From Treponemataceae bacterium (lineage in GTDB: Bacteria; Spirochaetota; Spirochaetia; Treponematales; Treponemataceae): DNA of 32,807 nucleotides. The notes beneath the pieces are model-generated. The model made no database searches and was not told the DNA's origin. It saw only the letters and a list, made by a program, of their open reading frames with translations. The translations under genes and the position numbers were made by a program. Positions 2,008 through 26,473 of this stretch are shown here, in pieces. The number at the start of each line of letters is the position of its first letter. Positions within the stretch are counted from its first letter, which is position 1. The stretch covers positions 1 through 32,807 of the forward strand of contig JAILBN010000104.1 in assembly GCA_024680915.1 (NCBI GenBank), written 5' to 3'.

Positions 2008-2138
2008 TATTTCCTTAAAAACTGGCGGCAGCTTATGAAAACTATTTAAACTAAATCTCCGAGACAGCTTAATTCTATCATCATTTAGATTATAATAGAA
2101 AGAGCATATATGAATTAAAACACTTGACTGGGGGAAAA
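2008..2138. promoter_or_regulatory. Divergent promoter region with a symmetrical -10 box
   Basis: This 131-bp intergenic region separates the left-edge secreted protein (minus) from the glycosidase (plus). It holds ATTATAAT at 2089-2096, which is its own reverse complement, so a TATAAT is present on both strands (2091-2096 plus, 2094-2089 minus). Only weak -35 matches exist (TTAATT at 2069-2074 for the plus strand, spacer 16). The plus-strand leader would be about 35 bases and ends in GGGGG four bases before ATG 2139. Confidence 0.45.
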
Positions 2139-4271
2139 ATGTCCTTAACAGATATCATAAAAAATCCATCTGATGATTTCACTCCGATTCCCTTTTGGTT
2201 CTGGAATGACAAGCTTTCAGAAGAAGAAATTGAAAGACAGATGCTTCAGTTCAAAGACAAGGGAGTCAACGGCTTCGTAATACATCCGAGGAAGGGGCTT
2301 CCCAAAGAAATACCCTATCTTTCTGAGGACTACTTTCATTTCGTCCGCTTTGCGGTGGAGCTTGCCGCAAAAAACAATATGCAGGTAGTGCTTTACGATG
2401 AGGCCATGTACCCCTCAGGCTCCTGCCACGGAAAAGTCGTTGCGGAAACCCCAGGCTTCGCATCCATGGGCTTGGCAATGGTCTCACAAAACTCACAGGT
2501 GGCGGCTCCTGGCAAAACTTCGGCAAAAGCGGCCTGTGGCGAAACTTCGATGAAAGCCGCTTCTGAAAAAACATACGCAACAGCAGCCTGTGGCGAAACT
2601 TCGATGAAAGCCGCTTCTGGCGAAACTTCCGCAAAAACAGCTTCTGGCGGCATTTCAGCCGCATCCTGTATTCCAGTGGCTTCCTGGGACGGATACGATT
2701 TTGTGCTTATGCCCACCGGCGGCACAATCCGGGGAGTTCACCCGGGTGAGGACGACGGGGAGCCGGATGCTCCTAAAAGCGCAGACCTGCTGAACCCGGA
2801 AGCTGTAAAAAGCTTTATCCGCAATACCCATGATTTATATTACGCCCACCTAAAGGAATATTTCGGCACAGTCATAAAGGCTTTTTTCACGGACGAGCCT
2901 GCCGTTATGGGTAGGAATCCGGCTCCCGGCCTTATTCCCTGGAGCTCCGGCATTTACGAGGAATATCTTGCCGCCGGTGGGAAAAAGGAGAACCTGCGTT
3001 TTTTGTTCGAGCCGACTGAAGAAAAGGGGCTGACAGAGGGACTTGAACCGGGAAGCCTTCCTGGCGGCAGCAAAGCCGGGGAAAAACAGTCAGAAAGGTC
3101 CAGAAAAGTCACTGCCAGGCAGGAGCAGGGGAAGGTTGCATCGAACATAGCCGCCGAAACACGCGCCATATACCGTCGCGTAATCCACCAACGCCTTTCC
3201 CAAGCTTATTACAAGCCGCTTCACGACTGGTGCGAAGACCACGGAATAGCCCTCACCGGCCACCCGGAAAAAAGCACTGACATAGGCTATCTGCAATACT
3301 TTCACATACCCTCCCAGGATGTGGTATGGCGTTTTGTGGCCCCGGAAGAGAGCAAGGCAATAACTGGCGAGCACTCCTGCATGGCCAAATGCAGCTCCGA
3401 CTCCGCCCGCCACCGGGGAAAAATAAGGAACGGAAACGAATGCTTCGGCGTATGCAGTCGGCCTGAAACTCCCTATTCCTTCACCCAGGACGAAATGCGC
3501 TGGTACTTGAACTGGCTTTTTGTCCGGGGCGTGAACATGATTTTTCCTCATGCTTTCTTTTACTCCATAAGGGGCGACAGAAAGGACGAAAGACCACCCG
3601 ATGTGGGGCTTCATTGCGGCTTCTGGGACAATTACAAGCAGATGACAGATTTTATAAAAAGGACTTGCACCTTGCTTACAGGCTCCAGCAATCTGGCTGA
3701 AATAGCAGTCTTATGCACCAGTGACAATCTTTCCTGGCGCATAGCAAAGCCTCTTTTTGAGAATCAGGTGGAATTCAACTATCTTGAGGAAGAGCTTCTT
3801 CCCCTTTGTGTAATGGAAAAGGGCCGGCTTAAAATCCAAAAGCAGGACTACAAATTCCTGATTTATGAAAGGTCTGAGACCTTCAAGCCGGAGACAAAGA
3901 AGCTTATGAAGGAGCTTTCAGAGAAAGGGCTTTGTCTTATTCCCTTTGAAGATGAGGAAAGCTTAATCCAGGAGCTTTTGACTCCCAAGGCTGCTACCAA
4001 GATCAACCGGGTTTTCCTGACGGAGACCACAGAGACAGAAGCCCAACAGGAAAATGTCCCTGAGCCCATGCTCAGGGTTACTCTTTGCAGAAAAGAAGGG
4101 GAATATTTCGCCCTGCTGGTCAATGAAGGCTTCGAGCCGATAAAATCCAAGCTGCAGATAAAGGGCTTCAAAGCACTTTCCTTTTATGATGCCTTCACAG
4201 GAGAACGAAGCAGTGAATACAAGGGTCTTAAAGCTAACCAATGCCTGATTGCAGTGCTGGAAAAGCTTTAA
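2139..4271 (+). CDS. GH106-like TIM-barrel glycoside hydrolase with low-complexity inserts
   Basis: A 710-residue protein without signal peptide, probably cytoplasmic. I chose ATG 2139 because GGGGG lies four bases before it; the longer frame begins at a TTG at 2124 with no such signal. The N-terminus has 'PIPFWFWND...' then 'GFVIHPRKGLP' and 'LYDEAMYPSG'. Further on are 'FFTDEP', 'TGHPE', 'RNGNECFG' and 'HAFFYS.RG'. This order resembles alpha-L-rhamnosidase-like GH106 and related families of clan-A-type barrels, with acidic residues of TDEP and GNE as candidate catalytic groups (inference). Two inserts are odd: a 9-residue tandem repeat at residues 125-177, and a charged Gly/Glu/Lys/Arg-rich stretch encoded around 3005-3150. 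The substrate is unknown. It lies 171 bp before the hydrogenase-maturation genes and has no evident functional link to them. Confidence 0.7.
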   Translation: MSLTDIIKNPSDDFTPIPFWFWNDKLSEEEIERQMLQFKDKGVNGFVIHPRKGLPKEIPYLSEDYFHFVRFAVELAAKNNMQVVLYDEAMYPSGSCHGKVVAETPGFASMGLAMVSQNSQVAAPGKTSAKAACGETSMKAASEKTYATAACGETSMKAASGETSAKTASGGISAASCIPVASWDGYDFVLMPTGGTIRGVHPGEDDGEPDAPKSADLLNPEAVKSFIRNTHDLYYAHLKEYFGTVIKAFFTDEPAVMGRNPAPGLIPWSSGIYEEYLAAGGKKENLRFLFEPTEEKGLTEGLEPGSLPGGSKAGEKQSERSRKVTARQEQGKVASNIAAETRAIYRRVIHQRLSQAYYKPLHDWCEDHGIALTGHPEKSTDIGYLQYFHIPSQDVVWRFVAPEESKAITGEHSCMAKCSSDSARHRGKIRNGNECFGVCSRPETPYSFTQDEMRWYLNWLFVRGVNMIFPHAFFYSIRGDRKDERPPDVGLHCGFWDNYKQMTDFIKRTCTLLTGSSNLAEIAVLCTSDNLSWRIAKPLFENQVEFNYLEEELLPLCVMEKGRLKIQKQDYKFLIYERSETFKPETKKLMKELSEKGLCLIPFEDEESLIQELLTPKAATKINRVFLTETTETEAQQENVPEPMLRVTLCRKEGEYFALLVNEGFEPIKSKLQIKGFKALSFYDAFTGERSSEYKGLKANQCLIAVLEKL
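2511..2669 (+). repeat. 27-bp in-frame minisatellite, about six units
   Basis: Successive 27-bp units encode GKTSAKAAC, GETSMKAAS, EKTYATAAC, GETSMKAAS, GETSAKTAS and a final 8-residue GGISAASC. Units two and four are identical at the DNA level. The period is a multiple of three, so slippage would change insert length without breaking the frame. Confidence 0.9.
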
Positions 4272-4442
4272 TCCTGCAAGAGACCGCTCCGCCATGAGAT
4301 ACTCTCCCCTTACCCAGGGCTTACCCCTTGACAAAAAAGGCTTATAAGGGAAAGATTATGTCGCACGTAAGTGCAAGAACTTTTCAAGAAAACACTTTTC
4401 TAAGATTAAGGACAGGAGATGTCTGAGATTGAGGAGGAAGTC
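4272..4442 (+). promoter_or_regulatory. Intergenic region with a candidate promoter for the hydrogenase-maturation genes
   Basis: A perfect -35 box TTGACA lies at 4328-4333. Downstream -10 candidates are imperfect: AAAGAT at 4351-4356 (spacer 17) or GATTAT at 4354-4359 (spacer 20). Small dyads follow, GCAC-GTAA-GTGC near 4363-4374 and TTTTC-AA-GAAAA near 4380-4391. No GC-rich stem with a T-tract is visible after the glycosidase stop, so read-through from it is possible. Confidence 0.4.
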
Positions 4443-4709
4443 ATGGAAACCAAACCAAATGCTGAACGCTCCGTAGGAGTTATAGCAGTCATAATCAAAA
4501 AGCGTATGGAAAGCGCCACCGCCGTGAACAAGGTACTGACGGAAGCCGGGTCTATCATTATCGGAAGGATGGGCATACCCTACAGCGAACGAGACCTCAA
4601 CATCATCACACTCATAGTAGACGCCACCACAGACCAGATTGGTTCCCTTACGGGGAAGCTGGGTCAAATAGAGGGCGTCACCGTAAAGTCCACCTTAGCA
4701 AAGCTATAA
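4443..4709 (+). CDS. TM1266-type putative regulator of the iron-only hydrogenase system
   Basis: An 88-residue ACT-like protein. The frame also has an ATG at 4419, but the ATG at 4443 follows GAGGAGG with a 5-base gap, and the shorter form aligns with the usual family N-terminus, which begins just before the first strand (here 'SVGVIAVIIKKR'). Family features are 'VNKVLTEAGSIIIGRMGIPY', 'IITLIVDATTD' and 'ALTGKLG'-like 'SLTGKLGQIEGVTVKS'. The family (TIGR03959 type) occurs next to hydE, hydF and hydG in fermentative anaerobes; its ligand and mode of action are not established. Here it lies 41 bp upstream of hydG and probably shares its transcript. No DNA-binding motif can be seen. Confidence 0.85.
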   Translation: METKPNAERSVGVIAVIIKKRMESATAVNKVLTEAGSIIIGRMGIPYSERDLNIITLIVDATTDQIGSLTGKLGQIEGVTVKSTLAKL

Positions 4710-4750: not shown

Positions 4751-6307
4751 ATGAAAGAGTGTGAGGCAAGGACCTGCTCTGGCGAAAAAAGGGAAAGTGT
4801 AGCCAGCTGGGTAAAAAATCAGATTAAACAGGATGAGATCGACCGTTACATGAATAACGGACACGATTTTATTGACGACAGCTACATAGCAAGGACTCTG
4901 GAAGAGAACCGGAATGTAGAAAAAGAAAGAATCCGGGGAATTCTGAATAAGGCCCACGAAGTCCGCCTTATGGATGATGCGGATGTGGCAGCTCTCTGCA
5001 ACATCACAGATCCAGACTTAAGGGCAGAGGTTTTCCAGGCCGCTGAGGAAATAAAAAAACAGGTTTACGACAACAGAATCGTAATGTTCGCACCGCTTTA
5101 TTTAAGCTCAAAGTGCGTCAATGCATGCAGGTACTGCGGCTTCCGGGCAGACAACGCAGAACAGGAAAGAACAGTTCTTACCCAGGCTGAGGTTGAGGCA
5201 GAGACCCACGTTCTTGCCTCAAAGATAGGCCACAAAAGGCTGGTCATCGTCTTTGGAGAGCATCCTGAGTCCGCGGTGGACTACATCATAGACTGCATGA
5301 AGACCATATACTCAGTTCACGACCAGGTCCGTAACGGCGTAGGAGAAATCCGCCGGGTAAACGTCAATGCGGCTCCTATGAGCATTGCTGACTTAAAAAA
5401 ACTGGAAAAGGGGGGAATCGGTACCTTCCAGGTTTTCCAAGAAACCTATAACCACGAAATCTACCGGACCATGCACCCGGCAGGAACCCTTAAGGGCAAT
5501 TACGGCTGGAGGCTTTATTCCCTCCACCGCGCCATGGAGGCAGGAATAGACGACGTTGCTATAGGCTGCCTTTTTGGTCTGGCAGATTGGAAAAGCGATG
5601 TGCTTGGCATGGTAGCCCACGCCCGGGACCTTGAGAATCGCTTCGGTCTTGGCCCCCATACAATTTCAGTTCCCCGTCTTGAGCCCGCTATCGGCACTGA
5701 TTTCAGCTTCATCAAGAATTGGGTAAGCGATGATGACTTCCGTTATCTGGTGGCAGTCCTCCGTGTGGCAATTCCTTATGCGGGGCTTATCGTTACCAAC
5801 AGGGAAAAACCAGAGATGATCCGCTCCCTCAGCGACATCATCACCCAGAGGGATGCGGACAGCCGCATCGGTCTCAGGGCATACTCAGAGGCCTTCAAGG
5901 TTGGGCTTAACACGAGCAATGACAAGCAGAAGCTTGAAAAGGAACAGTTCGAGCTCAGTGATACAAGAAGTCTTGATGAGGTTATCCGGGAAGCCGCCGA
6001 GCTGGGTCACATAGTTTCTTTCTGTACAGCAGGCTACCGCTGCGGACGTACCGGCAAGAAAATCATGGATCTGCTCAGGACAGGTCAGGAGGGCTGCTTC
6101 TGTAAGCTCAACGCAGTGCTTACCTTCCAGGAATGGCTCGATGACTTCGGCTCAGAGGAGACACGGAGAATCGGTATGGATCTTATAAAGAAGGAAATTG
6201 AAGAAATACGAGGAAGAACACCTTCTGTTTACACAAAGGTTTTGTTCAATAAATTCTACGGAGATTATCAGAAAGTCGTAGCCGGACAGAGAGATTTGTA
6301 CTTCTAA
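4751..6307 (+). CDS. hydG: [FeFe]-hydrogenase maturase HydG, radical SAM tyrosine lyase
   Basis: A 518-residue radical SAM enzyme. In the family it cleaves tyrosine to p-cresol and makes the CO and CN- ligands as an Fe(CO)2(CN)-cysteine synthon for the H-cluster. The SAM-cluster motif CVNACRYC gives Cys122, Cys126 and Cys129 (CX3CX2C). Length and the surrounding sequence match HydG rather than ThiH. The C-terminal auxiliary-cluster region is unusual: the family motif is CX2CX22C, but here Cys425 is followed by Gly428 where the second Cys is expected, with a cysteine at 431 instead; Cys449 and Cys451 follow, the latter at the expected third position. GGGG seven bases before ATG serves as ribosome binding site. 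It follows the TM1266-type gene and precedes hydE, separated from it by 98 bp with a strong stem-loop. Cytoplasmic. Confidence 0.93.
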   Translation: MKECEARTCSGEKRESVASWVKNQIKQDEIDRYMNNGHDFIDDSYIARTLEENRNVEKERIRGILNKAHEVRLMDDADVAALCNITDPDLRAEVFQAAEEIKKQVYDNRIVMFAPLYLSSKCVNACRYCGFRADNAEQERTVLTQAEVEAETHVLASKIGHKRLVIVFGEHPESAVDYIIDCMKTIYSVHDQVRNGVGEIRRVNVNAAPMSIADLKKLEKGGIGTFQVFQETYNHEIYRTMHPAGTLKGNYGWRLYSLHRAMEAGIDDVAIGCLFGLADWKSDVLGMVAHARDLENRFGLGPHTISVPRLEPAIGTDFSFIKNWVSDDDFRYLVAVLRVAIPYAGLIVTNREKPEMIRSLSDIITQRDADSRIGLRAYSEAFKVGLNTSNDKQKLEKEQFELSDTRSLDEVIREAAELGHIVSFCTAGYRCGRTGKKIMDLLRTGQEGCFCKLNAVLTFQEWLDDFGSEETRRIGMDLIKKEIEEIRGRTPSVYTKVLFNKFYGDYQKVVAGQRDLYF

Positions 6308-6405: not shown

Positions 6406-7443
6406 ATGATTCGGAAGCTGATTGATGCACTGGCTGACGGTGAAATGCAAGAGAAAGCTGATTTTATCTTTTTACTGGAAAACATAGATGAAGATGAAAG
6501 GAGCTATCTCCATGAGAAAGCCCGTAGACTTACGGAAAAAATCTACGGAAAAAAGATTTTCATCCGGGGCTTGATAGAATTCTCCAACTATTGCCGCAAC
6601 AACTGCTTTTATTGTGGAATAAGGCAGGCAAATAAAGAGGCGGAAAGATACCGGCTTTCAAAGGAAGATATTCTGTCATGCTGCCGCCAGGGTTTTCAAT
6701 TAGGCTTCCGAACCTTCGTTCTTCAAAGCGGGGAGGACGATTATTATTCCGCAAAAGATATTGCTGACATTGTAAGAACGATAAAAGAGGAATACCCTGA
6801 AGTGGCGGTGACGCTTTCCATAGGAGAACGCAGTAAAGAGGACTACCGCCTTTTCAGGGAAGCCGGGACAGACCGCTACCTGCTGCGCCACGAGAGCGCA
6901 GACAAAAAACACTTTGAGAGGCTTAAGCCTGCCTCCTTATCCTTTGACAAGAGGATGAGCTGCCTAAAAAATCTTAAGGAGCTTGGCTACCAGACAGGCT
7001 GCGGCTTTATGGTGGGCTCTCCCTATCAGACAAAGGAAGCGCTGGCCCAAGATCTTCTTTTCATAAAGGACTTCCAGCCGGAAATGATCGGAATCGGGCC
7101 CTTCATCCCCCACCACAATACTCCCTTCAAAGACTTCCCCCAAGGCAGCACGGAAGAGACCCTGATTCTTATCTCCTTGCTAAGGCTTTTACAACCCCAT
7201 GCCCTTATTCCTGCCACCACAGCACTGGGAACCGCCGACCCGGATGGAAGGAAAAAGGGAATTCTGGCAGGGGCAAACGTCATTATGCCCAATCTCTCCC
7301 CACTTTCCATAAGAAAGCAATACCAGCTTTATGACAACAAAATATGCAGCGGCAATGAGACTGCAGAAGGGCTTGAAAGCCTGAGAAAAGAATTGAGGAC
7401 TATAGACCGGGAGATAACAATTGACCGGGGCGACATGAAATAG
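6406..7443 (+). CDS. hydE: [FeFe]-hydrogenase maturase HydE, radical SAM protein
   Basis: A 345-residue cytoplasmic radical SAM protein of typical HydE length. HydE acts after HydG, converting the HydG-made iron-cysteine synthon toward the dinuclear core that HydF carries to the hydrogenase. The SAM-cluster motif CRNNCFYC gives Cys63, Cys67 and Cys70. Other family features are 'LQSGEDDYYS', 'TLSIGERS', 'YLLRHES', 'GCGFMVGSPYQT', 'IGPFIPHHNTPF' and 'GANVIMPNLSP'. The extra cysteine triad that binds a second cluster in some HydE proteins is absent: only one Cys is seen in the 'LYDNKICSG' region. ATG 6406 follows AGGAA at a 9-base gap. It converges on the heparinase-like gene with 22 bp between the stops and no visible terminator. 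Confidence 0.92.
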   Translation: MIRKLIDALADGEMQEKADFIFLLENIDEDERSYLHEKARRLTEKIYGKKIFIRGLIEFSNYCRNNCFYCGIRQANKEAERYRLSKEDILSCCRQGFQLGFRTFVLQSGEDDYYSAKDIADIVRTIKEEYPEVAVTLSIGERSKEDYRLFREAGTDRYLLRHESADKKHFERLKPASLSFDKRMSCLKNLKELGYQTGCGFMVGSPYQTKEALAQDLLFIKDFQPEMIGIGPFIPHHNTPFKDFPQGSTEETLILISLLRLLQPHALIPATTALGTADPDGRKKGILAGANVIMPNLSPLSIRKQYQLYDNKICSGNETAEGLESLRKELRTIDREITIDRGDMK

Positions 7444-9185: not shown

Positions 9186-12100
9186 CTAAGAAAGAACAAT
9201 TGTCTTTACTTCGAAAGGCCTGAAAGTTAAAGCTATACTGCCATCTTTTATTTTCAAGGCTTCAACAGGCTGCTTCTCGGTCATATCCGTTTCATAAGCA
9301 TTCTTCACACAAAGCAAAGTCCTAAGCTGGCAGGAAGCAGACTTCCCCGTGGTCTCATAGAGGCGGAGCACAGTTTTTCCATGGCTTTCATCCGCTTGTT
9401 TGACTGTCTCCAGCATAATATCAGCATTGTCCAGTGAGAAAAAGCTCCTTGAACCATGGGCTGTATTTGGGGAAGGAACTTTATTCTCATTCCCGGCCGA
9501 AGAATCCTCTTGGGCGCAAGCAAGTGAGACAGGAATAAGCACAGGAGGATTATTCAGCTTATAGGCCTCCTTTATGACCTCACTTTCAGAAAAGCTTCCA
9601 TTAAAGACATAAAGGCTGTAGGTCATCTCCTGGATTCCTTGATCCGCATACATATCAGGAATTACAGGGGATTTGAGCAGAGTAAGGGAGATTGTTCCTT
9701 CATCAAGGCTGACTCCATACTTGCAGTCGTTCAGTACAGCGACTCCCCGGCTGCCGTCAGTAAGGCAGGTATATTTATGATTGCAGACCTCGTATCTGTC
9801 ACGGTCAAACTGCCGGGTCCTGTGAACCGGCCTTTTTATAAAGCCGAACTGGATATCGCATATGGCCTCGTCTGTGTAAATTCCAAGAGGGAAGTCCGCC
9901 TTAAGGATTTTATGCTTCTCCTGCCAGTCAATTTTCGTCACAAAGTCTATCCGCCGACTCTGAGCCCTCATCTCTATGAACTGTTCCAGCTTTGACTTAT
10001 TTATATCCCGGCATATCCTCAAACGGACAAAATCCTTCTCGTTCTCCACTATTTCCACCCTTCCAGTGTCGTCCAGGGCAAGGGGAGCCTCTCTATACAT
10101 GGGTGAAAGCTCCCAGGCATCATAGAAGGGGGTGACATCCTTATACATGGAGAAATTATTGCAAAGGCCCGCAGAAAGCTCCCTGCCGCTTTCTTTATCG
10201 AAGATAGAGGATAGCCGTCCGCATTCATCCACACTGACCTTAAGATATTCGTTCTCCAGCAGGATGGAAACTACGCCATTCTCATTGACTGTACAGCAGG
10301 AGACAGTTCCCTTTCGATCAGCAAAAAAATCAGAGTCCACACTCTTGCCGTTCTCTCTAGGGGCAAGAACATAACCACAGGGAGGGAGCTTTACCCAAAA
10401 GGCTTTTCCCCTTTCTTTGTCCTCTACACGCTCCAGCCTTTCCCAAGGCAAGCTGTTAAGGATAAGGCAGCTGTCAGAGTCCTCATCCTCAGTAACCCCA
10501 GCCACGGAACAGGCCGCACTTTCCGCCAAGGCTCCAGCTTCATGAATAACCTCCAGAAGAGCTTTCTCTGCTTCATCATGTACTCTTTTTATGGAAGTAC
10601 CGGAGAGAATATCATGGAACTGGCATAAAAGAAGCTTCTGCCACAATCCGTCTAACTGCTGAAGATAAGAAGCCGCCCGGGGGCTGCAAGGCTTTTCCGC
10701 CGCATCTGACAAGGAAGCAGAAACCAGGGCACACCAGAACTCCGCATTGTGGAGGGCTACCTCCGCCAGCCTGTTATAGCGCTTGGTTTTTGCTTGGGAA
10801 GTATAGGCCCCCCTGTGCCAGGAAAGATAAAGCTCTCCCCTGTAAACATTCTGAGGGTGAGGATTAAGGCCATATTCAGATGCAGCTGACGCATCCTCGG
10901 CCTCTTTCCTTTCAAGACGCTGGAAAAAATCCGTCAAGGTCTCATACTCAACCTTAGGAAGCCCTTCCAGATTATGGGTTCTTCTTACTGCCTCCAGCAT
11001 ATCCCTGGTAGGACCACCACCGCCGTCACCGTAACCGAAGGGAAAAAGCATACCTTCTATATTCTCTTCCTGCTTCCTGTCATTATTCCAGCGTTGGGAA
11101 AGAGAAGCCGCTGTATAGACTGCATTATTCTTCTTATGTATATGGGAAAGAATCTTTGTGCCGTCTATACCCTGCCAATAAAAGTTATTGTAGGGGAACT
11201 GATCGCAATCAGGGTCAATGCGGAGAAGCTTTTGGGTCGTAAAATATTTTATACCGCAGCCTGCAAGAATCTGGGGCAAGGCCCCGGAAAAACCGAAGGA
11301 GTCAGGAAGCCATGCCGTCTTGGAATCCTTTCCCAAATTGTCGCGGAACCACTTTCTTCCACGGACGAACTGACGGATTAACGCCTCTCCGCAGGGCAGG
11401 TTGGTATCATTCTCGACCCAGAAGGCTCCGTCACAAAAAATCTGTCCTGACTCTATTTTTTCTACAATACGTGAATAAAGATCTGGGTATAAGTTCTTTA
11501 TAGTCTCAAGGATATAAGGCTCACAGGCCAGGAACCTGTACTCCGGATATTCTTCCATAAGAGAAAGCTGGTTGGAATAGGTTCGGGCACATTTACGTTT
11601 AGTCTCTTCCAGGGGCCAAAGCCAGGCTAAATCAAGGTGGGACTGGCCGAAGGCACTCATAAAGGGAGCTGTGGAACCGTTCACACAGGAAAGGGCAGCC
11701 TTTAACACCTCTCCCGCCTTAAGGATAGAAGCAGTCCTTTCCTTCTCAGGCAGCTCCAAATCCGCTATAAGAGTGAACCTTTTCAATGCGTCGGCAACCT
11801 TCTGGCCACGAAGGGATTTTTCGTCCATAACAGAAAGCAGGCTATACAGGGTAAAGGCATCCATAGCGACCTGGTAGACCTCTTCATTCCAAACACCCCA
11901 GCTTATTCTTCCAACCTCCACCTGCTTTTCCGCAGGCTCCGGCACAGGCACCTCCCCATCTGCATAGGGGCCGCCGTTCTCCGGCCGGATACCGTGCCCG
12001 GCATAGACTTCTGAAAGCATAGAAAAGGCTTCACCACCAGAGGCTTTTGGGGTCAGCGTTATCCAATAATGGAATTTATCAAAGGCACCGGCAGCCTTTC

Positions 12101-12428
12101 CGTTCACAAAAACTAAGCTTTCTGCCCCGGTATCCGGCCGGCAGACAATCCTCTTCCCGGCCATATTCTGAGGCAGACGCAATTCATATTTGAACCAAGC
12201 GTATTCCCACTTTGCGCCCCATTTAGTACCGGGCAAAGCTTTATGAATTTTCGGAAGATCGGAAGCACCCTTTTTCCCTTTAAAAACTGCCTCTGCTTCC
12301 TCCATTGAAAGGAAATCATAGGTGGTGAAAAACACAGCAGGGAGAGAACCACACTCAGTAAAGAAAAAGCCAGGTAATTTCTCCATCCAAATTTTTATAC
12401 GCTCATTCCACTGTCTTCCTAGATCCAT
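9186..12428 (-). CDS. GH38 alpha-mannosidase
   Basis: A 1080-residue cytoplasmic enzyme that removes alpha-linked mannose by a retaining mechanism with a bound metal ion. The catalytic domain begins near residue 255 with 'GQSHLDLAWLWP'; metal ligands His264 and Asp266 are present. The expected nucleophile is Asp376 in 'WLPDSFGF', another likely metal ligand. Further family blocks are 'ENDTNLPCGEALIRQ' (about 339-353), 'FPFGYGDGGGGPT' (462-474) and the helical three-helix region with 'QFHDILSGTSIKRVHDEAE'. The C-terminal beta domains follow. The residue two before His264 is Gln, where most members have His; it is not a known metal ligand. A Ser/Asn-rich loop lies around residues 980-1000. GGGGG lies before the ATG. 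It is flanked by the HAD gene (60 bp upstream) and the lyase-like gene (13 bp downstream), so probably one transcript. Confidence 0.92.
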   Translation of the reverse strand: MDLGRQWNERIKIWMEKLPGFFFTECGSLPAVFFTTYDFLSMEEAEAVFKGKKGASDLPKIHKALPGTKWGAKWEYAWFKYELRLPQNMAGKRIVCRPDTGAESLVFVNGKAAGAFDKFHYWITLTPKASGGEAFSMLSEVYAGHGIRPENGGPYADGEVPVPEPAEKQVEVGRISWGVWNEEVYQVAMDAFTLYSLLSVMDEKSLRGQKVADALKRFTLIADLELPEKERTASILKAGEVLKAALSCVNGSTAPFMSAFGQSHLDLAWLWPLEETKRKCARTYSNQLSLMEEYPEYRFLACEPYILETIKNLYPDLYSRIVEKIESGQIFCDGAFWVENDTNLPCGEALIRQFVRGRKWFRDNLGKDSKTAWLPDSFGFSGALPQILAGCGIKYFTTQKLLRIDPDCDQFPYNNFYWQGIDGTKILSHIHKKNNAVYTAASLSQRWNNDRKQEENIEGMLFPFGYGDGGGGPTRDMLEAVRRTHNLEGLPKVEYETLTDFFQRLERKEAEDASAASEYGLNPHPQNVYRGELYLSWHRGAYTSQAKTKRYNRLAEVALHNAEFWCALVSASLSDAAEKPCSPRAASYLQQLDGLWQKLLLCQFHDILSGTSIKRVHDEAEKALLEVIHEAGALAESAACSVAGVTEDEDSDSCLILNSLPWERLERVEDKERGKAFWVKLPPCGYVLAPRENGKSVDSDFFADRKGTVSCCTVNENGVVSILLENEYLKVSVDECGRLSSIFDKESGRELSAGLCNNFSMYKDVTPFYDAWELSPMYREAPLALDDTGRVEIVENEKDFVRLRICRDINKSKLEQFIEMRAQSRRIDFVTKIDWQEKHKILKADFPLGIYTDEAICDIQFGFIKRPVHRTRQFDRDRYEVCNHKYTCLTDGSRGVAVLNDCKYGVSLDEGTISLTLLKSPVIPDMYADQGIQEMTYSLYVFNGSFSESEVIKEAYKLNNPPVLIPVSLACAQEDSSAGNENKVPSPNTAHGSRSFFSLDNADIMLETVKQADESHGKTVLRLYETTGKSASCQLRTLLCVKNAYETDMTEKQPVEALKIKDGSIALTFRPFEVKTIVLS

Positions 12429-12488
12429 AAAGCCCCCTTTACCGATGAAAAACCAGGCTGACCGACAAAGCCAACCCCATAACGATTA

Positions 12489-13025
12489 CTATAAAGACCT
12501 GCTGCAGGCAACATCAAGATCAAGAAGGAGCTTATAAAGCTCTTCCCTCGTCGAAACACAGTAATCCGGGGTTTCGTCCTTATTGGCGGGTATCATATTA
12601 TAACGGGGGGACCAGTCATATAAAATGGAGGTGATACCAAACCTATTAGCCCCCAGAATATCCCGGGGAAGATTGTTCCCAATCATGACAACCCGGCTCT
12701 TATCCTTATCCGTAAGAGAAAGAGCATCCATTGCCCCTTGGAACATACAGGCAGCAGGCTTTCTGTCAGGCATGACCTCTGAAATTATACGGGCAGAAAA
12801 AACATCAGACAAGCCGTGCTGCTCATAAATATTCTTGAAGGACTCGACCTCACCGTCTGCAACCAGAGCAAGGGTAAAGCCCTCGTCATAAAGCTGACGC
12901 AAAAGCCTGCCTCCCTCATCGTGAAGCTCCGCTTTCACCACTATTCCCCGCTGGTCACGCACTTCCGTGGACTCATCCACAAGGGTATCACCGCTATCAA
13001 AAAAAACAATAAGCTTACGTTTCAT
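12489..13025 (-). CDS. HAD-family phosphatase
   Basis: A 178-residue cytoplasmic HAD-like hydrolase. Motif I is 'FFDSGDTL' with nucleophile Asp10; the residue at +2 is Gly rather than the usual Asp, a variant also found in other 'FFDxGxTL' members. Motif II is in 'TLALVADGE', Lys of motif III in 'MPDRKPA', and motif IV in 'VVMIGNNLPRDILGA'. The ATG directly follows the stop codon of the upstream ABC ATPase in the same frame, so translation is probably coupled. Its place between sugar transport and GH38 suggests a sugar-phosphate substrate, but the sequence does not show which. Confidence 0.8.
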   Translation of the reverse strand: MKRKLIVFFDSGDTLVDESTEVRDQRGIVVKAELHDEGGRLLRQLYDEGFTLALVADGEVESFKNIYEQHGLSDVFSARIISEVMPDRKPAACMFQGAMDALSLTDKDKSRVVMIGNNLPRDILGANRFGITSILYDWSPRYNMIPANKDETPDYCVSTREELYKLLLDLDVACSRSL

Positions 13026-14057
13026 TTAACGTTTCATCTTCTCCTGAGAAAAACTGAAGGTCTTTGAGAAGCCCTTCAGCCGGAGCTCTTCCGCCCTATG
13101 ACAGGCGACAAAGTGACCGTTGCCTATATCCTTGAGCTCAGGGGCGAAATTCTTGCAAGTCTCCGTACAATAACGGCAACGCTCATGGAAATAGCAGCCT
13201 GAGGGAGGATTAGCAGGGTTAGGAATCTCACCTTCCAGGGGAATACGTTCCATAACAAAATCCGGGTCGGCCACAGGGACGGCAGAAAGAAGAGCCTCAC
13301 TATAAGGATGTTTAGGATTGGTGAACAATTCCTCAGTCTCCGCATACTCCACCATCTTGCCCAGGTACATGACTCCCACCTTATCGGAAATATGTTCCAC
13401 AACGGAAAGATCATGGCTTATGAAAATGTAGGTCAGGTTGAATTCCTTCTGAAGATCCTTCAAAAGGTTTATGACCTGAGCCTGAATTGATACGTCAAGG
13501 GCCGATACAGCCTCATCGCATACAACGATGCGGGGTTTTATAACAAGGGCACGGGCAATTCCTATGCGCTGTCTCTGACCACCGCTGAAGGCATGGGGAT
13601 AACGCTTAAGATAAGACACATTCAGTCCCACCTTCGCTGCCATATCCATACAAAGCTGGTTCATCTCATCCTTTGAAAGATGGGGAAAGTTAGCTTCTAT
13701 GGGCTCCCGGATTATATCGATTACAGTCATACGAGGATCCAGGGAGGAATAGGGATTCTGGAAAATCATCTGGATATCCTTACGTATTTCCTTCATCTTG
13801 GCCTTGTCAGCCTTGAGGAAGTCCAGCTTTTCCCCATCCTGGGTGTAATATATGACCTCACCGGAGGTGGAGGGAATAGCCCGGCAAACACAACGGCCTA
13901 AAGTCGTCTTACCACAGCCAGACTCGCCTACAATACCGATTGTCTCACCTTCGTTTACATCAAAGCTTACGTCACTTACAGCATGAACGCATATTTTCTT
14001 TGAGGTGAAGTCCTTGCTCACGTTTTTCACCTCAAGAATTTTTTTATCGGATCTCAT
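13026..14057 (-). CDS. Opp/Dpp-type ABC transporter ATPase, second subunit (OppF/DppF-like)
   Basis: A 343-residue peripheral ATPase of the inner membrane. Walker A is GESGCGKT at 44-51, the signature is FSGGQRQR at 157-164, Walker B is 'IVVCDEA' at 177-183 (Ala where Pro is usual, seen in other OppF-like proteins), and the switch His is in 'FISHDLS'. The C-terminal oligopeptide extension has the cysteine cluster '[14 protein letters not shown]' and 'VACH', which resembles the iron-sulphur-binding tail known in some Dpp ATPases. It overlaps the preceding ATPase gene by 4 bases (ATGA) with GGAGG upstream. Paired with the OppD-like subunit, two permeases and a binding protein, it should energise oligosaccharide or peptide uptake. 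Confidence 0.93.
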
Positions 14058-15109
14058 TCACCGGCCTCCTTTTTTGTGGCAGTGTCTGAAGCACTCTTTC
14101 CGCCGCATTTCCCAGAACAGGCCCAGCATGCAACCTGATGCTCAGAACCCATATCCACCAGCTCCGGATCCTTAACATTACACAAGCCTTCAATTCTCTT
14201 GGAGCAACGGTCATAAAAGCCGCAGCCTGCGGGAAGGTTCAAAGCCAGAGGAACAGTTCCCTCAATTGAGAAAAGCCTTTCCTGCTTTTTTCCACCGATT
14301 TTATGGACAGAACCGATAAGTCCCTGGGTATAGGGATGAGAGGGCTTCTTGTAGATCTCGGATACAGGGGCTGACTCCACAATCTTCCCCAGATACATTA
14401 CGGCCACCCTGTCGCACATGGCAGCAACGGTTCCCAGGTCATGGGTTATGAAAAGAATGGACATATGAAGGTCCTTCTGAAGCTCCTTCATAAGGTCAAG
14501 GATCTGGGCCTGAATGGTAACGTCCAAGGCTGTGGTAGGCTCATCAGCGATGAGCAGCTTTGGGTTACAGACAAGAGCCATAGCTATGAGCGCCCTCTGA
14601 AGCATACCGCCGGAGAACTCATGGGGGAACTGGTCATAGCGTTTCTCGGCATTGGCTATTCCCACCTTTTTCATCATGGCGATGGAAATCCCCTTGGACT
14701 TTTTCTTGTCTTTAGTTATATGAAGCCTTGTGCATTCATTTATCTGGTTTCCTATGGTATTCATAGGAGAGAATGCAACCATAGGCTCCTGGAAAATCAT
14801 GGAGATCTGCTTGCCTCTTACATCCCTTATTTCCTTTCCCTTAGAATTTAAGGCAAGAAGGTTAGTCTTGCCACTCATATTAGTGTCAAAGATGATTTCT
14901 CCCTCTGACACACATTTTTTATCGTTGATACCCAGTATTGCCTTACTGGTCAATGACTTTCCGCAGCCGGACTCACCCACCAGCCCCAAAGTCTCGCCTC
15001 TTTTTATGGAGAAATTAACGCCCCGGACAGGAGTAAGGGTTCCTTCCTCCATCTTAATGGAGACTTTCAAGTCTTTTACTTCAATGATAGTTTCTTCATT
15101 ATCTGCCAT
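14054..15109 (-). CDS. Opp/Dpp-type ABC transporter ATPase, first subunit (OppD/DppD-like)
   Basis: A 351-residue ATPase. Walker A is GESGCGKS at 45-52, the signature FSGGMLQR at 164-171, Walker B 'LLIADEP' at 184-190, and the H-loop is in 'FITHDLG'. The C-terminal oligopeptide-type extension includes 'CGFYDRCSKRIEGLC' and 'VACW'. These features and the gene position mark it as the OppD/DppD partner. It starts 17 bp after the second permease gene, with GGAG nine bases before ATG, and overlaps the OppF-like gene by ATGA. Its neighbours are glycosidases, so the imported compound is more likely an oligosaccharide than a peptide (inference). Confidence 0.93.
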   Translation of the reverse strand: MADNEETIIEVKDLKVSIKMEEGTLTPVRGVNFSIKRGETLGLVGESGCGKSLTSKAILGINDKKCVSEGEIIFDTNMSGKTNLLALNSKGKEIRDVRGKQISMIFQEPMVAFSPMNTIGNQINECTRLHITKDKKKSKGISIAMMKKVGIANAEKRYDQFPHEFSGGMLQRALIAMALVCNPKLLIADEPTTALDVTIQAQILDLMKELQKDLHMSILFITHDLGTVAAMCDRVAVMYLGKIVESAPVSEIYKKPSHPYTQGLIGSVHKIGGKKQERLFSIEGTVPLALNLPAGCGFYDRCSKRIEGLCNVKDPELVDMGSEHQVACWACSGKCGGKSASDTATKKEAGE

Positions 15110-15126
15110 TTCACAAGTCTCCTTAA

Positions 15127-16305
15127 TTATTTATAGGGGTCGGCGGCATCGCGGCAGCCGTCTCCGAAGAAGTTGAAAGCAAGAACTGTAAGTATTACGA
15201 AAAAGAGAGGAATAAGCTTCCAGGGATAATTCGCAATGCTTGTTATATCCTGGGTCTCTTTCAGAAGAACACCCCAGCTTGTAGCCGGCGCACGCATACC
15301 AAGACCAAGGAAGCTCATGGAGGTCTCACCGATAATCATTCCAGGAATACCCAAGGTCAGGCTGACTATAAGATAACTCATAAAGCCAGGAACCATGTGC
15401 TTGAAAAGGATCTTCCAGGTAGACACACCGGCAATCTGGGCGGCCATTATATAATCCTCGTTCTTTATGGACATGAACTTTCCTCTTACGATTCGAGCCA
15501 AGCCTGTCCATCCTATAAAGGAAAGTACCACAGTGATAGAAAGATACATGGCAGGCACAGGGATATCCGCGGGGATGGCGGCGGAAAGAGCCATCCAGAG
15601 AGGAATTGAAGGCAGGGCTGAGATAACCTCGATAATTCTCTGTATCAGGTTGTCTACCCAACCGCCGAAGTAGCCGGAAATCCCGCCAAGGATAATACCC
15701 AGGATAAAGGATATGAGACAACCGGCGAAGGGTATTGTCAGCGATACCTGGGAGCCTATAAGGATACGGCTGAAAAGGTCGTTTCCAAGGTTGTCACCAC
15801 CGAAAAGAAGTATTTTTGCCTTATCGCCACCCTTCTCTCCCTTAACCTCAAAGAGGTGATGGCTGCAAGGAATAAAACCGAATAGCTTATAATCACGACC
15901 TTCAGCAAAAAACTTGACGAAATATTTTTCAGAGGTATCTTCAACCCATTCCTTTTTGAAGGTCTGCATGTTATTTTTGAAGGTCAAAGCATAGACATAG
16001 GGGCCTACGAAATTTCCTTCCTCATCATGCCAATGGATTTTAGTGGGGGCCGCATTCTTGTAGTTGCTGTCAAAATCATTTAGCCCATAGGGTGCTATGA
16101 AATTGGCAAAAAGGGCGTTGAAATAAAGTATACCAAGAATCCACATACTGACTTTGGCCAGCTTATGCTTGACCAGCTTACGTCCCATGAGGGTCCACTG
16201 GGAAGCCAGGTAATAGTCTTCCTCAGTCTTTTGTTTTTTCTTGAATATGGAAGCAAACTTTTTCAAGCCGCTACCTGTTTTTGTCAGAATATCAGATACG
16301 GTCAT
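15127..16305 (-). CDS. Opp/Dpp-type ABC transporter permease (OppC/DppC-like)
   Basis: A 392-residue inner-membrane permease. The open frame reaches an ATG at 16338 inside the upstream gene, but the ATG at 16305 follows GGAGG about nine bases upstream, so the shorter form is chosen. After a long cytoplasmic N-terminus comes one membrane helix ('MWILGILYFNALFANFI'), then a loop of over 100 residues with 'PTKIHW', 'FFAEGRDYKLFG' and 'HLFEVKG', then 'LGNDLFSRILIGSQVSL' and the remaining helices. The EAA-like coupling loop is near 'AAQIAGVSTWKILFKHMVP'. The long periplasmic loop is a feature of a subset of OppC-like permeases that I associate with carbohydrate loci (from memory). It lies between its partner permease and the ATPases. 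Confidence 0.9.
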   Translation of the reverse strand: MTVSDILTKTGSGLKKFASIFKKKQKTEEDYYLASQWTLMGRKLVKHKLAKVSMWILGILYFNALFANFIAPYGLNDFDSNYKNAAPTKIHWHDEEGNFVGPYVYALTFKNNMQTFKKEWVEDTSEKYFVKFFAEGRDYKLFGFIPCSHHLFEVKGEKGGDKAKILLFGGDNLGNDLFSRILIGSQVSLTIPFAGCLISFILGIILGGISGYFGGWVDNLIQRIIEVISALPSIPLWMALSAAIPADIPVPAMYLSITVVLSFIGWTGLARIVRGKFMSIKNEDYIMAAQIAGVSTWKILFKHMVPGFMSYLIVSLTLGIPGMIIGETSMSFLGLGMRAPATSWGVLLKETQDITSIANYPWKLIPLFFVILTVLAFNFFGDGCRDAADPYK

Positions 16306-16318
16306 CTTCAAAGCCTCC

Positions 16319-17317
16319 TTAGTCCCTGCCCTTCTCATAGCGGATACGGGGATCCATCCAAGCTAGGATGATGTCGGAAACAAGCGTTCCTACAACTACA
16401 AGGAAAGCCTGAGTCAGAAGTATTGTTCCAGAAAGATATGTGTCCTGGGTCTTCAAGGCCTCAAAAAGAACTGGTCCTTGAATAGCAAGGTTCATAACGA
16501 TTGCCGATATGGTGGAACCTGAGAATATGCTGGAAAGAGAACCGGCAAGTCCGGAGACCACCGGATTAAGAGCTGCGCGAAGGCAGTACTTATAGGTGAT
16601 GGTCGCCTCAGAGACACCCTTTGCCCTTGCCACCAGAGCATACTGCTTAGCCTGCTCATCAAGCATCTGGGCTCTTACTGTACGGATGATACCACAGGTA
16701 CCAGAGGTACCGATAACAATGATAGGAATGACCATACGCTTAAGGAATTCCCCGAAATTATACCAATGAACGCCATTCTGCAACATCTCAGGGGAGAAGA
16801 GCCCCAGGAGGGGATCTCCCGTTATTTTAAAGGATGCGTACATAAGGATAATGGCAAGCAGGAAGTTAGGGGTCGCCATACCAAGGAAGCCCACTACGGA
16901 CAAGGCGTAATCACCCACTGAATACTGGTGGAGGGCACTGTATATTCCTATGGGAAGGGAAACAAGATAGGTGAAAAGCATAATCGTAAGGGAAACTAAT
17001 ACAGTAAGCCAGAAACGGTCCATAATGACACTCCATACAGGCCGGCCGTAGGCGAAAGAATAGCCGAAATCTCCCTGGGATATTATTTTCCACACCCACT
17101 GCACATAGCGGACAGGCCAAGGCTTATCAAGACCATACTCTGCCCTCAAGGCTGCCACGTCAGCCTCGGTGAAGACTTCACCTTCAGCCTGCATACGGGC
17201 GACATAACTTGAAACATAATCACCTTCTGGAAGCTGCATTATAAAAAATATGACAAAGGAAATGATGACTATCGTAGGTATGAACAAAAGTACACGCTTA
17301 ACAATATATTTCCACAT
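16319..17317 (-). CDS. Opp/Dpp-type ABC transporter permease (OppB/DppB-like)
   Basis: A 332-residue inner-membrane permease. The N-terminus 'MWKYIVKRVLLFIPTIVIISF' is the typical first helix of OppB/DppB proteins, followed by a periplasmic loop with 'GLDKPWPVRYVQWV' and 'QGDFGYSF', and about five further helices. The coupling loop is 'ALVARAKGVSEATITYKYCLRAALNPV', and the C-terminus has 'LVSDIILAWMDPRIRYEKG', both family hallmarks. AGGAG lies nine bases before ATG. It starts 201 bp after the binding-protein stop, in contrast to the tight spacing of the other transporter genes. The gap holds stem-loops that may lower its expression relative to the binding protein. Confidence 0.93.
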   Translation of the reverse strand: MWKYIVKRVLLFIPTIVIISFVIFFIMQLPEGDYVSSYVARMQAEGEVFTEADVAALRAEYGLDKPWPVRYVQWVWKIISQGDFGYSFAYGRPVWSVIMDRFWLTVLVSLTIMLFTYLVSLPIGIYSALHQYSVGDYALSVVGFLGMATPNFLLAIILMYASFKITGDPLLGLFSPEMLQNGVHWYNFGEFLKRMVIPIIVIGTSGTCGIIRTVRAQMLDEQAKQYALVARAKGVSEATITYKYCLRAALNPVVSGLAGSLSSIFSGSTISAIVMNLAIQGPVLFEALKTQDTYLSGTILLTQAFLVVVGTLVSDIILAWMDPRIRYEKGRD

Positions 17318-17518
17318 CTATGGTTTCTCCTTTCATTTTTTTTCAAGGATCACAAGCAATTCTGGTCAGCACTGGAAAAACCTCCTGACAAAAATCCTCT
17401 CAAGAAGCTTTCCCCCTGCTGCCAAGTCCGGCACCGAAAGAGGGGCAGGCAAGCACTTTCGCAAGCTTTATTCCACCTGCCCTCTTACGGTCCGCTGCCT
17501 CAGCAGCTCATCCTTTCT
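17318..17518 (-). promoter_or_regulatory. Stem-loop region between the binding-protein and permease genes
   Basis: On the transcribed strand two stems follow the binding-protein stop: a 5-bp GC stem with a 4-base loop (17494-17507), then a long stem pairing 17476-17486 with 17438-17449 (11 pairs with one bulged base). Neither is followed by a T-tract, so they look like mRNA-stabilising or processing hairpins rather than full terminators. Such elements commonly give more binding protein than permease. No coding frame of interest is visible here. Confidence 0.55.
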
Positions 17519-19468
17519 TTAGTCCTTAAAGAAGCAGCAGTCAATATGGGCTATTCCAAGACCACGCTGCTCATCAGAGAACATTGCGGTTACAGGGAAG
17601 TTCTTTATCTTGCTGTCAACTATGTAAAGAAGTGAGCTCGGGCGGATATAACCGATAACCCAAAGATTCTCCTCATGGAGCTTATACATCTGCATTGCAA
17701 GCTCTTCACGCTCTGCCGGATTGGCAGAATTACGGAAGCTCTTGTAAACATCACAGAGCTTTGCCAGATCGCCTGTAGGAGCAACACCAGAGGCACCGTT
17801 TGATGCAACCCATGTTCCTATGTCACCGTACCATTCTGCATAATTTCGAACTGGAACGAGGGTATCCGGGCGGAGTGCCAGGCTGATTGTTTCTGCAGGA
17901 GCAACCGGGCTAATTACGGCATCGTACTGGTTACCAGTGATAAGGTTGTTCAAGGTATCCTTATCCATTGGTTTGTATGTTGACTTGATACCGATTTTCT
18001 TCCAGTACTCGTTGAGGAGCTGGTATGAATCATCTGCACCGGAGCCTGTATATGTCAGGAAATCTATACAGAGATCAGTTCCGTCCGGGCAGTCATAGAA
18101 GCCGTCTTTGCCTTTCTTACAGCCGAGCTTTACAAGAAGAGCCTCTGCAGCGGCAGGATCGTACTCACACCACTTGTTTGCCCATTCTTCTGTATAACCC
18201 ATAGCACCTTCAGCAGGAGCAGCCTGTCCTGGCTCTGACCAACCACCGGATATATTCTTTGCGAACTCTGTACGGTCTACGGAAATTGAGAGAGCCTGAC
18301 GGAATTCCTTAGTCTGGAAAAGAGCTCTTTCAGCAAGCTCAGGAGCTGTCTGGTTGAGCTCAACCTGTGAAGAGGTGTCTGACCAACCTGATGTAGCCCA
18401 CTGATAAATTGTATAGCCGACTTTATTGGAGTTATCAGAAAGTGTTTCTATATCAGCCCAAGCACCTGTAGCGAAGTCAACTTCACCGGCCAGAATTTTG
18501 ATAAGGATCTGGCTTTCGTCAGAAACCTTTGTCCACTGAATTGAATCTACATAAGGAAGCTGTTTGCCTTCCTGATCGACTTTCCAGTAATAAGGATTAC
18601 GTACGAATTCCCAGTATGTTCCGTTGGTATCGTTCTTTCCGGGTTCTGTGGAAAGTACATAAGGATTAAGAGTAGGAATACCAGAAACGTTCCAGAAATA
18701 ATATCCTGTTTCCTTTCCCATCTTCTTCGCATCGCTGAAGCCCATTTCCTTGGCTTTCTTCTCAGCAGCTTCTGCACCGATGAACTCAGGCAGAACAGTC
18801 TTCATGTAATGGGCAGGAGCATAGCACCACTTTCCGTTGATAGCCAGCTCTTCAGGGAAAAGAGGTTTAGGATCCTTGAAGGTAACTGTGAAGGTTACAT
18901 CGTCAATCTGCTTGAAGCTACATTTGTTCTTGTTTCCAGCAGCATCCGTGGTATAGAAGCATCCCCAGAGAGATTTTCCGAAGGTTTCAGGAAGACACAT
19001 ATGATCATAGAAGAAGCAGCAGTCATAAGCTGTGAAGGGCTGACCGTCAGACCATTTCATGCCCTTGCGGAGGTGAATTGTCCAGACAGTATAATCGGAG
19101 TTGGCTTCCCAGGATTTTGCCACGTTGGGCTCCACTGTACCATTGTTAGTAAAACGGAAAAGTCCCTGCTCTATAGGCTTTCCTGTACCCCAACCGGCAC
19201 TTGTTCCGACCATCTGGAAGTCTCCACCGTAGGTTCCCACATACTCAAGGGATTCAACCATAACATCAGATGATACGGGTATACGATTCTCAAGAGAAAG
19301 CAGTGTTCCTGCCGCAACCTGAGCAGCAAGAGCCGGAGCTTCCTTTGCTACAGAAACTGTCGTCTTTTTAGTCGTGTTCGTTTTCTCTTTTGTACCACCT
19401 GCAAAAACTAAAGAACAGGCGAGCACTACCATAAGTAAAACAACCAATACACGTCGCAAATTTTTCAT
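17519..19468 (-). CDS. Family-5 extracellular substrate-binding protein, probably for oligosaccharides
   Basis: A 649-residue exported protein of the SBP_bac_5 (OppA/DppA) family. The signal peptide is residues 1-24 with probable cleavage after 'VFA' before 'GGTKEK'; a cysteine at 18 could instead be a relaxed spirochaetal lipidation site. The family block 'EQGLFRFTNNGTVEPNVAKSWE' and 'WTIHLRKGMKWSDGQPFTAYDC' is clear, and 'FRQALSISVDRTEFAKNI' follows. It is longer than most peptide binders (about 500-550), in keeping with members that bind sugars in thermophiles and soil bacteria (family knowledge). AAGGAGG lies close before ATG. It follows the GH105 gene by 60 bp with an intervening hairpin and precedes its permeases. 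Confidence 0.9.
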   Translation of the reverse strand: MKNLRRVLVVLLMVVLACSLVFAGGTKEKTNTTKKTTVSVAKEAPALAAQVAAGTLLSLENRIPVSSDVMVESLEYVGTYGGDFQMVGTSAGWGTGKPIEQGLFRFTNNGTVEPNVAKSWEANSDYTVWTIHLRKGMKWSDGQPFTAYDCCFFYDHMCLPETFGKSLWGCFYTTDAAGNKNKCSFKQIDDVTFTVTFKDPKPLFPEELAINGKWCYAPAHYMKTVLPEFIGAEAAEKKAKEMGFSDAKKMGKETGYYFWNVSGIPTLNPYVLSTEPGKNDTNGTYWEFVRNPYYWKVDQEGKQLPYVDSIQWTKVSDESQILIKILAGEVDFATGAWADIETLSDNSNKVGYTIYQWATSGWSDTSSQVELNQTAPELAERALFQTKEFRQALSISVDRTEFAKNISGGWSEPGQAAPAEGAMGYTEEWANKWCEYDPAAAEALLVKLGCKKGKDGFYDCPDGTDLCIDFLTYTGSGADDSYQLLNEYWKKIGIKSTYKPMDKDTLNNLITGNQYDAVISPVAPAETISLALRPDTLVPVRNYAEWYGDIGTWVASNGASGVAPTGDLAKLCDVYKSFRNSANPAEREELAMQMYKLHEENLWVIGYIRPSSLLYIVDSKIKNFPVTAMFSDEQRGLGIAHIDCCFFKD

Positions 19469-19501
19469 ATTTCCTCCTTAAAAATTTTTGCAACTACAAA
19501 A

Positions 19502-19519
19502 CCGCAGTCTTCCCTGCGG
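19502..19519 (-). terminator. Short GC-rich hairpin between GH105 and the binding-protein gene
   Basis: CCGCAG and CTGCGG pair perfectly around a 6-base loop, and on the transcribed strand TTTTG follows at once. The T-run is short, so I read it as a partial terminator or an mRNA 5'-end stabiliser for the binding-protein transcript. The GH105 stop is only ten bases upstream. Confidence 0.5.
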
Positions 19520-19528
19520 AAAGATTCT

Positions 19529-20629: not shown

Positions 20630-20722
20630 GGTTTCAGAATAAGGGAGAATTTTTAAGCGAACAACGCAATTTTTGCCGATTTTCTTTAAATATATTGCAT
20701 TTCTTGCGTTTTAACAGAAATT
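20630..20722 (-). promoter_or_regulatory. Candidate promoter and operator upstream of GH105
   Basis: On the minus strand TTGTTC (20664-20659) and TATTCT (20641-20636) are 17 bases apart and could be weak -35 and -10 boxes; the predicted start falls at or within a few bases of the ATG at 20629. An inverted repeat, AACGCAA at 20663-20669 and TTGCGTT at 20704-20710, overlaps the -35. TTGCATT (20695-20701) and TTGCGTT form a direct repeat with 9-bp spacing. The AraC gene nearby is an obvious candidate binder. Confidence 0.4.
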
Positions 20723-21595: not shown

Positions 21596-21619
21596 CGATC
21601 TCTTCTCCAATATCCCTGC

Positions 21620-23133: not shown

Positions 23134-23170
23134 AATCAACCTCTTTTATCACTAAGGATCAAAATCCACC

Positions 23171-23193
23171 AGGACAGGCTCCGGATCCTCGTC

Positions 23194-23196
<3 letters not shown>
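23171..23196 (-). terminator. Stem-loop at the GH2 stop codon, weak terminator candidate
   Basis: AGGAC-AGG pairs with CCT-C-GTCCT across an 8-base loop, with one bulged base, and overlaps the GH2 stop. On the transcribed strand only a short T-run (ATTTTG) follows after several bases, so termination would be partial. Confidence 0.35.

Positions 23197-26473
<3,277 letters not shown>

Follow-up and report, generated by a model that had tools for sequence, protein, structure and literature searches.

The hydG gene of the window (i.e., the whole stretch of DNA analysed here, 32,807 nucleotides; all features given below are on the + strand) lies at positions 4751..6307 and encodes a protein of 518 aa with a glycine in place of the second cysteine of the C-terminal motif C-x2-C-x22-C. 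The question raised by this locus is whether such a protein is still a HydG and which residues hold its auxiliary cluster. It belongs to the HydG family but departs from the canonical C-x2-C-x22-C type. In the reading that we favour, with a probability of about 0.72, the protein is a functional HydG from a second and widespread clade (clade II): tyrosine (or a very similar substrate) would be cleaved at the SAM cluster, Fe(CO)2(CN)Cys would be assembled at the C-terminal iron-sulphur cluster, and this cluster would most likely be held by C425, C431 and C451 instead of by C-x2-C-x22-C, the extra iron being still on H303.

The C-terminal motif and the fold

The protein scores 426.8 bits with the HydG model TIGR03955 (cut-off 312.15) and 218.4 bits with the ThiH profile TIGR02351, i.e., under the cut-off of 380. 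Most of the traits that define a HydG in the broad sense of TIGR03955 are found in the window: the score, the radical SAM motif CX3CX2C (C122, C126 and C129; 5114..5137), and C425, C451 and H303 together with a third Cys at 431. HydE, HydF and an [FeFe]-hydrogenase also co-occur in the genome. For the remaining trait, the production of CO and CN- from tyrosine and the delivery of the Fe synthon, the indication is an indirect one, i.e., the active hydrogenase obtained with the S. wolfei maturases (see below). Two traits of the canonical (clade I) HydG are absent: (i) C-x2-C-x22-C, due to G428; (ii) the Thr299/Ser318 crown, occupied by N350 (5798..5800) and D368 (5852..5854). The clades are named here by residue 368 (Ser in clade I, Asp in clade II), and residue 350 follows this division without exception.

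The codons read in the window confirm the five residues on which the sequence-only reading was built: C425, the first cluster Cys (tgt, 6023..6025); G428, at the site of the canonical second Cys (ggc, 6032..6034); C431, the probable relocated second cluster Cys (tgc, 6041..6043); C449 (tgc, 6095..6097); and C451, the last cluster Cys (tgt, 6101..6103). In the alignment, G428 is opposite the second Cys of CTACYR in Thermoanaerobacter italicus HydG (4wcx). The likely ligand set, as judged from the sequence, is C-x5-C-x19-C. H303 (5657..5659) is aligned with H265 of 4wcx, the histidine that we take to bind the extra («dangler») iron. Position 293, the second His of the canonical HxxH and an Asp in the window, was considered as a lost iron ligand and was rejected, because the entry numbering (an offset of 14, obtained from the C-terminal ends of the alignment) puts H265 at H303, which is invariant. 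A histidine is mentioned for HydG in a review, the available part of which gives no number (PMC6212873).

The AF2 model of the protein (52 sequences) has a mean pLDDT of 90.3 and a pTM of 0.91. Its best match is 4wcx, with a Z of 52.4, an rmsd of 1.4 over 452 residues and a TM-score of 0.96 (by target length). The motif region belongs to the portions modelled with less certainty (block means of 70, 76 and 85 over 421-450). The canonical 4wcx shares with the window protein the fold, CX3CX2C, the first and last C-terminal Cys and H265. It differs by the spacing of the motif (C-x2-C-x22-C vs. C-x5-C-x19-C), by the phenol pocket (Thr/Ser vs. Asn/Asp) and by the residue at TcThiH position 128 (Glu vs. 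Val). ThiH (7pd1, 7pd2) shares the tyrosine-lyase barrel (Z 41), but its alignment stops at residue 427-428, which is consistent with ThiH having no C-terminal cluster domain.

The spacing itself has been in print since 2022: C-x(5)-C-x(19)-C is given for one Clostridium autoethanogenum protein, CLAU_RS03260, in the portion seen of a paper that cites Duffus 2012 for motif variability and in which hydG was not found in 5/8 acetogens (PMC9431212). The likeness of this protein, one sequence in a motif survey, to that of the window is one of printed motif spacing. Clade II itself may be already visible in published trees; the part consulted of PMC3785491 refers to a HydG tree of 87 taxa, given as a supplementary figure, and to a previous phylogeny of the maturases. 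No report of the change of Thr/Ser to Ala/Asp in the pocket, nor of proteins without the second Cys, was found in the open-licence library searched; the variability of the motif may already have been noticed in Duffus 2012. Neither structural nor spectroscopic data were found for any clade II HydG.

Conservation of the cluster cysteines

Three samples were compared. The first consists of 59 related genomes, including that of the window, 28 of which match at E <= 1e-60. The eight nearest relatives (60-79% identity) all have C425, C431 and C451 with Gly428, and among 19 relatives at 40-44% identity C428 is present in all 18 that reach the motif. The second is a contig search from which the best 80 of 83 loci were taken (Spirochaetota, Bacillota, Bacteroidota, Omnitrophota, Neomarinimicrobiota and others), among them loci from Treponema and its kin with 77-80% identity to the window HydG, on the basis of which the window phylum is taken to be Spirochaetota. 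C425, C431 and C451 are present in 74/74 of the loci reaching the motif, in a set that is clade-biased by construction because the queries were N-terminal peptides from four clade members; position 428 is Gly in 72 of them, Ala in L120 and Asp in L133. The third consists of surveys of the window phylum (HydG match in 95/296 genomes), of the phylum of Dethiosulfatibacter (158/299) and of the order that contains Syntrophomonas wolfei (41/63). At least 22 of the 95 matching genomes of the window phylum carry clade II, and 2 of these 22 keep C428.

The 337 proteins thus gathered (with the window, 4wcx and 4rtb) were reduced to 275 distinct ones by removing 6 short pieces, 2 unreadable rows (those having a gap where a residue was scored) and 54 copies with identical cores. 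It must be kept in mind that the class counts below are not prevalences, because the surveys were read in part (the returned loci, 100 stretches picked for their score or identity and 12 longer ones). C425, C451, H303, R351 and CX3CX2C are invariant in 275/275. Cys428 is found in 154 proteins, Cys431 in 111, neither in 10 and both in none. All 139 clade I proteins have C428. The 136 proteins of clade II are divided into C428 (15), G428 with C431 (92), D428 with C431 (18), A428 with C431 (1) and, with neither cysteine, G428 (8) and D428 (2, both with L431). Every protein without C428 falls within clade II, and C431 is found in 0/139 proteins of clade I.

The 73 named loci with C431 belong, according to their NCBI records, to 18 phyla or unranked candidate groups, many of them being MAGs. 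The proposal of a HydG subgroup with another ligand set is thus upheld as far as sequence goes, the shift being conserved over many phyla and within one clade. A sequencing or assembly error at the motif, the objection that the sequence-only reading had raised against itself, has a practically nil probability and is excluded, because C425, C431 and C451 recur in independent genomes; nothing was found in its favour. By its own terms, that reading would also be refuted if CTAGYRCG proved common in proven HydG. With C431 in 111/275 (again not a prevalence) they are not rare, and a maturase set whose HydG has CTADYRCG gives an active hydrogenase (see below). C449 was rejected as a ligand: Cys is found there in 16/136 clade II proteins, and the extra Cys is therefore a lineage detail; His replaces it in 2/8 of the nearest relatives.

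The absence of any protein with Cys at both 428 and 431 is expected if one replaces the other, and this, together with the retention of C431 in 111/136 clade II proteins, argues that C431 is the new ligand. It is unlikely, although to be weighed seriously, that C431 is incidental or in the second shell and that the cluster is held by C425, C451 and a non-Cys ligand (Asp428, Glu447, water) or an added cysteine. For this speak the ten clade II proteins with neither cysteine, two of which combine D428 and L431, the 18 others in which D428 accompanies C431, and E447, which is found in 77/136 proteins of clade II vs. 0/139 of clade I. The first of the trees described below points in the same direction: on it, the Gly group without Cys requires three changes and the Asp pair without Cys one. 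A common replacement Cys was sought in the proteins lacking C428 and C431 and none was found: some have a Cys at 416 or 420, two have one at 445, and both D428/L431 proteins have one at 440. All ten come from genomes with HydF and HydA, so the clade may be able to do without a third thiolate.

Two kinds of clade II sequences deserve a separate mention. L197 and L198 (also L342 and L341; genomes G122 and G110) form a related pair with Asp428 and no Cys431, in which the cluster is perhaps Asp-ligated. L194 and L196, of the window's class, keep C428 and have a further Cys432 (CTACYRSCRTG), i.e., one past the variant position.

The tyrosine pocket and the probable order of changes

The rest of the protein had been described as intact. 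This is right for CX3CX2C and not quite right for the pocket of the tyrosine phenol, in which two residues differ (N350 and D368); neither this change nor the proteins without second Cys had been noticed in the sequence-only reading. In ThiH with bound L-tyrosine, the phenol oxygen has T299, S318 and S321 around it, and R306 points to it; the accessible part of the same paper calls these four residues strictly conserved in HydG, and states that a Glu or Asp of HydG at position 128 makes up for ThiH E158 (PMC9046217). By alignment, T299, S318, S321, R306 and position 128 correspond to residues 350, 368, 371, 357 and 167 of the window, and ThiH R300 to R351.

Position 350 is Thr in 139/139 clade I proteins and Ala, Asn, Cys or Val in 136/136 of clade II; position 368 is Ser in 139/139 and Asp in 136/136, respectively. 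Ser or Thr is kept at position 371 in 131/136 clade II proteins. Position 357 is Arg in 29 and Lys in 6 of the 41 clade II representatives with Gly or Ala428 and C431, and Ile in the window. Position 167 (V167 in the window, 5249..5251) is Glu in 96/139 clade I proteins, and an acid at 167 or 206 is found in 0/136 proteins of clade II. A scan of the 275 proteins for another acid present in more than 90% of clade II and in less than 30% of clade I gave none other than D368. His is gained in clade II at 171 (92%) and 259 (86%), where clade I has mostly Asp.

These values could be taken to mean that the substrate of clade II is not free L-tyrosine, and that an Asp at the phenol site, with no acid at the two positions of the carboxyl partner, goes with another amino acid. 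The pocket residues are replaced at 350 and 368 in every clade II protein, no exception is found at 167/206, and the available text of PMC9046217 describes T299, S318, S321 and R306 as strictly conserved in HydG. On the contrary, R351 is invariant, Ser/Thr371 is largely kept, and both acids are missing in 17/139 proteins of clade I too. The S. wolfei HydG, moreover, works in Escherichia coli, and its substrate is therefore available there. Another substrate is thus considered improbable, and tyrosine remains the substrate of the favoured reading.

The trees are quick ones, with SH-aLRT support only. In the first, calculated without the motif columns and with ThiH as a long branch, all C428-lacking representatives are in one set of 62 rows (SH-aLRT 99), which also holds 7 rows with C428, all with D368. 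In the second, without the motif and pocket columns and without ThiH, the S368/D368 split corresponds to one change (SH-aLRT 96), while C428 needs three changes and C431 six. Given these numbers of changes, and with direction and order inferred from the nesting, the pocket change most likely preceded the cysteine change. The second thiolate would afterwards have been moved, replaced by Asp or lost, most likely more than once. In the case of the window, its shift along the loop would be of three residues and would most likely have followed the exchange of the Thr/Ser crown for Ala(Asn)/Asp.

Maturation partners and a working relative

In the window, hydG is preceded by a gene of the TM1266 family, a putative regulator of the iron-only hydrogenase system (4419..4709; TIGR03959 103.5 bits, cut-off 60.8), and followed by hydE (6406..7443; TIGR03956 543.3 bits, cut-off 254.6). 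Around the hyd genes, at 2124-4271 and 9186-26379, are GH106-like, GH38, GH88 and GH2 genes and an oligopeptide-type ABC transporter set. The genome contains no second HydG: two other matches have 23-24% identity and one of them is hydE itself. It contains one HydF over the cut-off (546.3 bits) and four matches to Fe_hyd_lg_C, the two best of which are incomplete, one of them being at a contig start. A second HydE-like radical SAM gene is found on contig 118 of the same genome (1447-2445 of the locus, + strand; TIGR03956 156.1 bits, cut-off 254.6), close before hydF and apart from the true hydE beside the window hydG.

The same association is found in other genomes. Only HydF matches over the cut-off were used, because the loose threshold gives a match in 14/14 control genomes, in which HydF over the cut-off, Fe_hyd_lg_C and HydG are each found in 1/14. 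HydF over the cut-off and Fe_hyd_lg_C are present in 27/27 genomes tested, 26 of which are clade II by residue (G103 being the remaining one); these 27 include the ten genomes in which HydG lacks the second Cys. Among the 28 matching relatives of the first sample, HydF over the cut-off is present in 9/9 clade II genomes. No second match over the HydG cut-off is found in 41/44 clade II genomes (all 44 with D368 and C431). Additional HydG are a clade I protein in G067 (L153) and a clade II protein with C428 in G083 (L158); G063 has a second partial match and G098 a second match of 280.7 bits, under the cut-off. A single HydG match is found in 9/10 of the genomes without second Cys, the tenth (G415) having also a clade I HydG (L248). 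The fetched flanks of 51/75 loci contain hydE, hydF or a TM1266 gene. Against the favoured reading, 24/75 lack any further hyd gene there, in some cases with full 8-kb flanks.

A degenerate or repurposed radical SAM protein that has lost its role as maturase is highly improbable. The altered motif and pocket are the only points in its favour, and against it stand the family score, the invariant catalytic residues, the adjoining hydE and TM1266 genes, the fact that it is the only HydG of a genome that also contains HydF and HydA, and a relative that works, that of S. wolfei.

Active Hyd1ABC was obtained in E. coli when hyd1ABC of that organism was co-expressed with its hydE, hydG, a 348-bp ORF and hydF (Losey et al. 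2017, PMC5626996). The portion of this paper available here reports 94.5 U/mg for the recombinant hydrogenase (NAD+ reduction with H2) and states that co-expression of the maturases was necessary for an active enzyme; it contains no discussion of the motif. The 348-bp ORF of the published amplicon, in the maturase locus L361, is without known domain. S. wolfei was identified with genome G387 by the published primer sites: both maturase sites are present without mismatch (19 and 18 bases, L361), as is the HydF site (22 bases, L352), and the genomes nearest to G387 differ at the first maturase site by one or two mismatches. Two other primers of the same paper, for hyd1ABC, gave no match within two mismatches in the loci compared, which do not extend over that stretch. 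Its HydG (SWOL_RS05190) has 487 aa, scores 517.5 bits with TIGR03955 and contains CTADYRCG, A350 and D368. It resembles that of the window by its clade, the absence of Thr350, D368 and C431, and differs from it by Ala350, Asp428 and Ile447 (Asn, Gly and Glu in the window). To our knowledge, E. coli has no hydEFG of its own. Since the S. wolfei maturase set gives an active hydrogenase in this host, a clade II HydG of the C431 type takes part there in H-cluster assembly, the activity being that of the whole maturase set. It must be noticed, against the favoured reading, that this protein has D428 and not G428, and that its HydG is known from the joint expression of maturases.

Beyond the window, it may be proposed tentatively, and at somewhat less than even odds, that there are two mechanistically distinct HydG enzymes. 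The second would bind tyrosine via Asp (with a neutral phenol, or with Asp as base) instead of the phenolate crown, and would carry its auxiliary cluster on a relocated thiolate or, in 10/136 proteins, on only two of the usual thiolates or on Asp. If this is true, ligands regarded as essential can drift freely. The natural variant questions which HydG residues are indispensable. With its second thiolate moved, replaced by Asp or missing, and its pocket altered, the clade is a ready-made natural mutant series, which can test (i) which cluster ligands matter and (ii) the need for a phenolate crown in C-alpha-C-beta cleavage. Moreover, the maturase of clade II anaerobes is overlooked when hydG is sought by means of C-x2-C-x22-C.
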